NCBI GenBank assembly: GCA_938002085.1
Contig: CALLAT010000063.1
Coordinates: 1 to 37,509, forward strand
DNA: 37,509 nucleotides
Reading direction: 5' to 3'
DNA from: an uncultured Pseudanabaenaceae cyanobacterium
GTDB lineage: Bacteria; Cyanobacteriota; Cyanobacteriia; PCC-9006; JAAUQQ01
In this document: positions 29,053-31,249 of the stretch, piece after piece
Layout of the letters: every line of letters begins with the position of its first letter
Numbering within the stretch: position 1 is the first letter of the stretch
Notes under the pieces: model-generated
Seen by the model: the letters and a program-made list of their open reading frames with translations, nothing else
What the model was told of the DNA's origin: nothing
Databases searched by the model: none
Made by a program: the position numbers and the translations under genes

Positions 29053-29063
29053 GACCATTAATA

Positions 29064-29105
29064 GAAAAACTCGCCATTGCCCTAAGAGATAGAGCAATGG
29101 CGAGT
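29064..29105 (-). terminator. Terminator for the 50-codon minus-strand ORF
   Basis: ACTCGCCATTGC (29069-29080) pairs perfectly with GCAATGGCGAGT (29094-29105). Only on the minus strand is it followed by a T run (TTTTCT, 29064-29069), so it looks built to end a leftward transcript, although it also lies just after the rightward ABC exporter gene. Confidence 0.7.
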
Positions 29106-29155
29106 AGGCGTCACGGGCTTTGGCCGCAACCTCACTGCTTCAGAACATTTGCGAC

Positions 29156-29213
29156 TCACATCACCATCTGCCATAGCTGAGTTAAACCAGATGGAAACCC
29201 AATGGTGATGTGA
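29156..29213. repeat. Inverted repeat with two competing stems
   Basis: TCACATCACCAT (29156-29167) and ATGGTGATGTGA (29202-29213) are perfect 12-bp complements. Inside, CCATCTG (29164-29170) also pairs with CAGATGG (29188-29194). The two stems share CCAT and cannot form together. It lies directly downstream of the 50-codon ORF. Confidence 0.5.
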
Positions 29214-29227
29214 CAACGCCAATATCC

Positions 29228-29380
29228 CTAGCGCTGAGTCATGCGATCTCGCTGGCGAGTTGCCTTGCGATCGCGCCTATAGCGCTCCTGAGCCCTCGCC
29301 TTCAGCGAATGCTTAGGACGTAGAAGAAAAAACCCAAAGAGGACAAAAGCAATACAAGCAAATCCAAAGACAGGCGTCAT
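29228..29380 (-). CDS. Candidate small membrane protein, 50 aa
   Basis: An ATG at 29380 opens 50 codons ending in TAG at 29228. Residues 1-20 (MTPVFGFACIAFVLFGFFLL) are a clean hydrophobic membrane helix; residues 21-50 are strongly basic, with about a dozen Arg/Lys and no hydrophobic stretch, giving a single-span protein with a positive cytoplasmic tail. The codons use the local composition and include a HIP1 site. A Shine-Dalgarno sequence is weak (AAAAGAA). Downstream on the same strand are two hairpins, the further one with a T run. I know no family for it. It could be a regulator or assembly subunit of a membrane complex; that is only inference from size and topology. Confidence 0.55.
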   Translation of the reverse strand: MTPVFGFACIAFVLFGFFLLRPKHSLKARAQERYRRDRKATRQRDRMTQR

Positions 29381-29801
29381 ATTAGTTCTTTTAGATAAAG
29401 GATAAATAAATGATTTTTTTAGTGCTTAGGGCACGGTGCGATTGATAGATAACCCTGTTTCAAACCTCAGAACAATTATTTTGTCCACAGGTATTTAGAT
29501 AGGAGCCTAACATCTCGGTTCTAAGAGGGCAGGGTCTAAACCTAAAGTTGACGAAATTTTCATCTAAGCCTTGCCAAAGAGAATCAGCCTCACTCAACTG
29601 CCCCTATTCCCCAAAGGCTCCTGGCAGAAGGCTAACAATGCCACTCTCTCTAGCTTTTTTACAGCAATATTTATACGACTCAGGCAGCTCAGACAGAACT
29701 TTTGGGCATCTTAAGCTGGTCTACCAATAGCTGCAGCAGCAAGCATTTTTTCTCCAATCCAGGAAGAATTTGATTGCCCCCTGCCAGTAAATAAGTAACA
29801 G
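29381..29801. other. Gap of about 420 bases upstream of the GAF protein gene
   Basis: AT-rich next to 29390-29480, where the promoter of the minus-strand 50-codon ORF should lie. A 60-codon plus frame (29548-29730) has no family or ribosome binding site and is not called. Nothing else recognised. Confidence 0.4.
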
Positions 29802-29901: not shown

Positions 29902-30858
29902 ATGACCACCTCTGCTCCAACCTCCCTGCTGCTCCAACCCTTCCATAATTTTCACGCTGCCACGGGGGCTGTTCTGAAGTTTCTCCAAGGCCACCTTGGA
30001 TTTGACCTCTGCATGGTCACGCGGGTCAAGGACGAGCAATGGATTGTGGTCAATGTTGAAGACCAACGCTATGGCATGAAGGCTGGTGCTGTTTTTCCAT
30101 GGAAGAATACGCTGTGTTATTCCATGGTGATGGGCCAAGGCGGCAATATAACGCCGGATGTCTCCACCGTGGAAGCCTATGCCAAGGCCCCTCTGACAGA
30201 GCAGTTTAATATTGCGGCTTACATCAGCATGCCGTTATTCCATGGTGATGGAACTCTGTTTGGCACCCTCTGCGCCTTTCACTCGGAAGCCAAGCCAGCC
30301 AGCATGGAAGCCCAACAGCCCCTGCTAAAAGTAATGGTTCAGCTTTTGGTATCGCTCCTGGATAGTGATCTCAAACTCCTTCAGCAAAAGCGGCAGGTCG
30401 AGCGGAGTCAAGCGGAGTGCTGGCGCGATGAATTGACAGGTCTGTACAACAGACAGGCCTGGGAGCACTTTTTATCTGTGGAAGATAGCCGCTGCCATCG
30501 CTACGGCAGAGATGCTTGCCTGATCAACCTACAGCTCGATTTACAAGCTGCAGACATCACCTATGGCGAAAGCCCTGCGGAAACTTGGATCAAGGCGATC
30601 GCCCAGCTTCTCAGTTCAATCCTGCGAGAAGAGGACATTATTGCCCGCGTCGCATCGAATCAAGTGGGCATTATTGCTGTGGAAACAGAACCTGAACGCC
30701 TAGTTCGAGTCGTCAATCGGATTAAAGCTGAGCTCAAGTTCGCAGCCTTTCCCCTGACGATTGGCAGTGCAGTCCGAGACCCTAGCGCGACCTTAGGAGC
30801 CGCTTGGCATCAGGCCCAAATGAACTGCCAGGCGGCTAGCTCATCCCAAGCGAGTTAG
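29902..30858 (+). CDS. GAF domain protein with degenerate GGDEF domain
   Basis: About 318 residues. Residues about 12-160 are a GAF sensor domain (FDLCMVTRVKDEQWIVV, then FPWKNTLCYSMVMG and YISMPLFHGDGTLFGTLCAF). A short linker helix leads to a GGDEF-type domain starting DELTGLYNRQAWE (about 176-188). The active-site sequence that should be GGDEF reads ASNQV (about 251-255), so diguanylate cyclase activity and the nearby inhibitory site are lost; the protein probably works as a sensor or c-di-GMP-independent signalling scaffold. The ATG at 29902 is chosen; TTG 29881 would add seven residues. No partner histidine kinase or EAL gene is adjacent. Confidence 0.85.
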   Translation: MTTSAPTSLLLQPFHNFHAATGAVLKFLQGHLGFDLCMVTRVKDEQWIVVNVEDQRYGMKAGAVFPWKNTLCYSMVMGQGGNITPDVSTVEAYAKAPLTEQFNIAAYISMPLFHGDGTLFGTLCAFHSEAKPASMEAQQPLLKVMVQLLVSLLDSDLKLLQQKRQVERSQAECWRDELTGLYNRQAWEHFLSVEDSRCHRYGRDACLINLQLDLQAADITYGESPAETWIKAIAQLLSSILREEDIIARVASNQVGIIAVETEPERLVRVVNRIKAELKFAAFPLTIGSAVRDPSATLGAAWHQAQMNCQAASSSQAS

Positions 30859-30883: not shown

Positions 30884-31249
30884 TCAAAATCGTTCATAGA
30901 ATCCTTCATAGTGCCCGCAGCCCAGACAAGGTCCAGGCGGATTTACAGCACAACGAAGCAGGGGCGAGCGGCTATTGAAGCGGCAGCTACTATCTCCTAA
31001 AATCCATTGCCCATCCACCAATCTAGCTTCAGATGCTCGACTGAGCTGCACATAGAGCACAGCCTGGGCTAGCCGATATCGGCCCTGAGTATATCGATAG
31101 CGATGTCGACGCTCAAGTACGGCATAGGTTTCGCCTTGCCAAACCACCATCCCTCCTGGATTGGGCTCCCAGTCTAGCTCCAGCCTCCCCAGAGGCTGTT
31201 GGGATACCATCAGAACTAACTCAAACGAGCGCCCAGTGAAACGCTGCAC
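30884..31249 (-). CDS. Four-cysteine protein, DUF6464-like, coupled to TerC
   Basis: 121 residues. The N-terminal two thirds form beta-strands rich in Arg and aromatic residues (VVWQGETYAVLERRHRYRY). The C-terminus has Cys89-X10-Cys100-X7-Cys108-X2-Cys111 with a nearby His113 (RSPLLRCAVNPPGPCLGCGH), a likely metal-binding cluster. I recall this ending from cyanobacterial proteins called DUF6464, without known function. The start is GTG 31249, which overlaps the TAG stop of the TerC gene (TAGTG), so translation is probably coupled. That links its job to the transporter, by inference only. Confidence 0.75.
   Translation of the reverse strand: MQRFTGRSFELVLMVSQQPLGRLELDWEPNPGGMVVWQGETYAVLERRHRYRYTQGRYRLAQAVLYVQLSRASEARLVDGQWILGDSSCRFNSRSPLLRCAVNPPGPCLGCGHYEGFYERF

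Follow-up and report, generated by a model that had tools for sequence, protein, structure and literature searches.

The window, that is, the whole stretch of DNA analysed here, comprises 37,509 nucleotides of contig CALLAT010000063.1 from an uncultured Pseudanabaenaceae cyanobacterium, whose genome is referred to as G000 in the following. On its minus strand, it contains a small open reading frame (ORF), which is accompanied by the following features:

29228..29380, minus strand: gene for a small protein of 50 aa (ATG at 29380, TAG at 29228-29230), supported by orthologs and codon-level purifying selection
29321..29374, minus strand: codons 3-20, a predicted membrane helix that drifts yet stays hydrophobic (AlphaFold2 helix 3-20; codon comparison)
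29255..29308, minus strand: codons 25-42, the invariant tail SLKARAQERYRRDRKATR within the predicted helix 26-49, identical in three species
29156..29213, minus strand: second hairpin of the 3' untranslated region, with a perfect outer stem of 12 bp, single copy and present in this genome only
29069..29105, minus strand: intrinsic terminator hairpin with 16 pairs and a 5-nt loop, present in this genome only
29503..29513, minus strand: candidate promoter element ATGTTAGGCTC of the extended -10 form TGtTAnnCT, 133 nt upstream of the ATG
29902..30858, plus strand: divergent gene for a protein with a GAF and a degenerate GGDEF domain (Pfam GAF and GGDEF), 318 aa from the ATG at 29902

The ORF, read from 29380 to 29228 on the minus strand, encodes the 50-residue product MTPVFGFACIAFVLFGFFLLRPKHSLKARAQERYRRDRKATRQRDRMTQR. 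A preliminary description of this DNA had noted an ORF of 50 aa from ATG to TAG with a hydrophobic N-terminus and a basic tail, and the sequence contains all of these as described: residues 4-20 include no charged residue and have a mean Kyte-Doolittle value of 2.73, while the tail carries a net charge of +10 (+9 to +10 among the orthologs). Among the ORFs of 40-80 aa in the window, it is the only one that combines an uncharged N-terminal span with a strongly basic tail; Markov-1 random sequence is expected to yield 0.045 such ORFs in a whole window and 0.0013 in an intergenic stretch of equal size.

In a search of 59 relatives, orthologs of the small gene were found at the same locus in two of the three genus-mates that we compared (G001, 72% identical; G002, about 60%; none in G003), and a scan of 84,980 species returned the same two again, both of them uncultured Pseudanabaenaceae metagenome-assembled genomes (MAGs); the MAGs of this genus are 63-87% complete. 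The gene is single copy in each genome. Its three known members measure 50, 50 and 57 aa and each have one uncharged hydrophobic stretch, which places them in the general class of proteins below about 80 aa with one hydrophobic span. Beyond these, 390 genomes of the class yielded no relative with a useful score, and the family's other genus none even at E values of up to 10; none turned up elsewhere in G003, G004 or G005. Viral contigs and plasmids contained no relative either, and a viral or plasmid origin was rejected on these searches. Searches of Pfam, NCBIfam, PHROGs and PADLOC gave only sub-threshold matches (E >= 0.007), which differ between the members and fall short of a curated family, and a search of the PDB revealed no related family. 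Weak profile matches in the cyanobacteria G384, G199 and G054 were discarded for lack of an ORF of the right architecture, and a 203-aa ORF that follows the ABC gene of G005 was read and judged unrelated. Among the genomes examined, the small gene is thus an orphan, apparently confined to part of one genus.

The gene order around it is well preserved. G001 and the window share the order TPI, S4-like, ABC, small gene, GAF-GGDEF, TerC, ORF471 and aminotransferase, with one extra gene, DUF6464, in the window; the latter (30884-31249, minus strand) directly follows TerC and is missing at the locus in G001 and G003. On its contig, G002 follows this order for the part between the end of ABC and ORF471, except that it carries two tandem copies of the GAF-GGDEF gene. 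Each of the three genomes with the small gene has the convergent ABC gene next to it, and in all of them the small gene stands head-to-head with the GAF-GGDEF gene across a divergent spacer of 520-540 bp. In G003, the fourth genus member, the flanks are present, but between them neither the small gene nor the GAF-GGDEF gene occurs: ABC and TerC converge directly on each other, their stops 35 bp apart. Likewise, no GAF-GGDEF ortholog was found elsewhere in G003-G005. Read most simply, this arrangement points to a joint gain, or a joint loss, of the two genes. The TerC gene of G003 (L038:3490-3541) has a short in-frame repeat of SQSPVE units just before its stop, beside the junction at which the two-gene unit is absent.

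The case for translation comes from the codon comparison. Across the three species, 13 of the 18 codons in positions 25-42 have changed synonymously, while the residues are identical. Between G000 and G001, codons 25-50 differ by 10 substitutions, nine at third positions and one a synonymous change at a first position, and none of them nonsynonymous; between G000 and G002, codons 25-42 differ by 12, with no residue change. When the same number of substitutions was placed at random, a fully synonymous outcome was reached in 0 of 200,000 simulations for each pair. Consequently, as such conservation implies translation, the ORF is almost certainly a genuine protein-coding gene that is read in this frame. 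Coding on the opposite strand can be ruled out: the antisense frames are interrupted by stops or not the same in all three genomes, and of the 22 tail and core differences, 18 fall on third positions of the sense frame. A chance ORF or a decaying gene fragment could account for the lack of any homolog outside the genus, but this explanation is barely credible and is ruled out by the codon-level conservation, given that the tail has accepted synonymous changes only in three species, that start and frame are preserved, with the start codons aligning within two codons across the three genomes, and that the architecture is so rarely expected by chance in an intergenic stretch. The claim of the preliminary description that this is a single-span protein is borne out accordingly, the frame having been kept in close relatives under strong purifying selection rather than lost.

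This selection is distributed unevenly. Over codons 1-24, dN/dS is about 0.4-0.8, with some 20 nonsynonymous against nine synonymous differences between G000 and G001, and the substitution contrast between the tail and the membrane half is significant (Fisher p = 1.5e-4). Every replacement within span residues 4-20 is to a hydrophobic or small residue. At the codon level, the comparison thus shows very strong purifying selection on the arginine- and lysine-rich C-terminal region and little constraint on the membrane segment beyond hydrophobicity. Within the core of the tail, lysine and arginine have not been interchanged, although dS is about 1 or saturated. As silent sites have changed but each arginine and each lysine has been retained, this pattern suggests that the core makes specific contacts, rather than forming a generic patch of charge.

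AlphaFold2, given the three sequences, predicts a helix over residues 3-20, a break over 21-25 (RPKHS) and a second helix over 26-49, albeit with modest to low confidence (mean pLDDT 70.7, pTM 0.28). The hydrophobic moment of the tail does not exceed that of shuffled sequences (rank p 0.34); it is therefore probably not an amphipathic helix on the membrane surface, but should project as a soluble helix. According to the positive-inside rule, the N-terminus, which is short and uncharged, likely lies outside and the tail, with its charge of +9 to +10, in the cytosol. Taken together, we regard the product as a genuine, lineage-specific single-span membrane protein, with its membrane location predicted from these features.

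On the minus strand, the strongly structured 166-nt 3' region 29060-29225 contains two stable hairpins (fold z = -5.9 against shuffles). It matches no known RNA family, the window as a whole holds no Rfam match or tRNA, and a dispersed repeat is ruled out for the hairpins, which occur at a single locus in the genome. The preliminary description had credited the gene with its own terminator. A terminator running from 29105 to 29069 with the tail TTTTCTATTA is indeed present, and its T run exists on the minus strand only, although in a loose scan, shuffled versions of the region yield about 1.2 terminator-like sites each; it begins about 120 nt past the stop codon, with the second hairpin in between, and is not conserved. 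In G001, just 40 bp separate the small gene from the ABC gene and both hairpins are missing, and in G002 the small gene is followed by no comparable hairpin and by no terminator. Upstream, the block ATGTTAnnCTC recurs at distances of 133 nt (G000), 127 nt (G001) and 123 nt (G002) before the ATG and is matched once in the window, where 0.14 matches are expected. We consider it a candidate extended -10 box of the small gene, with function and strand deduced from form and position; it could serve the opposite strand instead.

The divergent neighbour provides a further lead. Its GGDEF signature reads ASNQV in the window, EENQL in G001, and SENEI and SGNEI in the two tandem copies of G002 (L028:2433-4456), which share 75% and 54% identity with the copy in the window. 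None of these has the intact GG(D/E)EF motif of an active diguanylate cyclase, and the enzyme site accordingly looks dead. By comparison, among 27 distant relatives from other families (about 35-40% identity), the GGDEF motif is exact in 21, one residue off in five and degenerate in one. With all four paired copies degenerate and the distant relatives mostly intact, the loss of the active site coincides with the small gene in our sample, a coincidence seen in one lineage only. Within about 1.5 kb of the distant relatives, no ORF resembling the small gene was found; a 66-aa ORF in L051 and a 51-aa ORF with a GTG start in L055 passed a loose filter and were rejected, as they share no sequence resemblance with it. 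In the alignment of the TTG-start form of the GAF-GGDEF gene, G001 has an in-frame TAA, which suggests that the true start is the ATG at 29902.

What, then, might the small protein do? The invariant tail makes it likely that it has a specific partner. We tentatively favour, without rating it an even chance, a membrane tether or regulator whose partner would most likely be the dead-GGDEF protein, because the presence, absence and degeneration of the latter track the small gene. In such a mechanism, the N-terminal helix would act as an anchor only, and a single specific partner would dock, at the membrane, onto the arginine-rich helix that follows the RP hinge. With the divergently encoded GAF protein and its catalytically dead GGDEF domain as the likeliest candidate, the pair would constitute a membrane-localised sensor or effector, not a c-di-GMP synthase. 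The link between the two is drawn from one presence/absence event and a shared location in four incomplete MAGs, and their association may be linkage only. Nor is there a strong electrostatic case for pairing, since the acidity of the GAF-GGDEF protein is slight (net charge -6).

Other roles would fit parts of the evidence. With its size, single span and charged tail, the protein matches the accessory subunits or regulators of large membrane complexes (transporter, photosynthetic or respiratory), such as AcrZ, KdpF, CydX and SliP4/HliR1, and a genus-limited precedent with one predicted span exists in the 37-aa HliR1 (PMC5126843). The ABC gene beside it in every genome that carries it would also suit this role. 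Conserved complexes, however, tend to have subunits of wide distribution, whereas the small gene is limited to part of one genus; furthermore, variation lies in the membrane helix, the very element that would pack against such a complex, and G003 keeps the ABC gene without the small gene. The preliminary description had proposed just such a subunit or regulator. With selection falling on the tail and not on the membrane helix, and with a gene for a predicted soluble protein instead of a membrane complex as the conserved neighbour, the emphasis shifts, and we consider this role possible, if on balance unlikely.

A role in tethering RNA, ribosomes or the nucleoid to the membrane would make sense of a tail that is arginine-rich, charged +10, predicted to be helical and strictly conserved; yet the protein resembles no RNA-binding family in Pfam or NCBIfam, and its distribution is very narrow for so general a role, which renders this option improbable. 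We judge it still less probable that the gene encodes a type I toxin, a short hydrophobic peptide with a charged tail that is repressed by an antisense RNA. One span, 50 aa, a charged C-terminus, a long AT-richer 5' region and a structured 3' region are all compatible with a toxin, and a candidate of this type is known from the cyanobacterium Microcystis (PMC12390103). This reading is weakened by the single copy per genome, by the 3' region, which is unconserved and therefore offers no shared antisense overlap, and by the pattern of constraint: for a membrane-disrupting peptide, one would expect the opposite of an invariant tail next to a freely varying membrane segment. In addition, a simple scan of the region detected no sigma-70-like promoter on either strand.

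Returning to the tether or regulator of the dead-GGDEF protein, a bolder version, which we offer at low confidence, is that of a two-gene module arisen within one genus, consisting of an inactivated relative of diguanylate cyclases and a dedicated 50-residue anchor encoded head-to-head. If it holds true, the tail keeps the former enzyme at the membrane and thereby converts it into a membrane-localised sensor. Irrespective of this, codon conservation establishes an ORF of fewer than 60 residues, without a known family, as a real and strongly selected gene, and locates the selected part in the tail, not in the membrane helix. The paired presence and absence with a degenerate GGDEF gene moreover yields a concrete, testable candidate partner, something that the majority of orphan small proteins do not have.

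Among the closest known systems, YajC (PDB 2rdd_B) also has an N-terminal membrane helix that ends in an RP motif (ILRPQQ versus LLRPKH), but the match (E = 0.86) is at chance level and confined to that helix, and none of the three members has a Pfam match to the YajC domain at E <= 1. TatA/Hcf106 share the short N-terminal span, the P-containing hinge and the second helix, but there is no Pfam match, and the second helix of the small protein is not amphipathic beyond shuffles. Kinship with YajC, DivIC or TatA was rejected, the scores being at chance level or absent. Type I toxins (Ldr/Fst/TxpA-like and MsoT1) are likewise small, with one span and a charged tail; they differ from the single-copy small gene with its unconserved 3' region and invariant tail, and for the Microcystis candidate MsoT1, two helices are predicted (PMC12390103). 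A further comparison is offered by the cyanobacterial small single-span proteins SliP4 (PMC12850537) and HliR1, which are very short with one predicted span. The latter, from Synechocystis, is genus-limited as well, with no homologs detected beyond the genus; by its description, it differs in its predicted pI of 7.9, hence without a strongly basic tail, and in its neighbour, as it lies upstream of sodB (PMC5126843) and not next to a GAF-GGDEF gene. The general type is therefore already known, as genus-restricted single-span small proteins exist in cyanobacteria, and the protein described here is a lineage-specific one.
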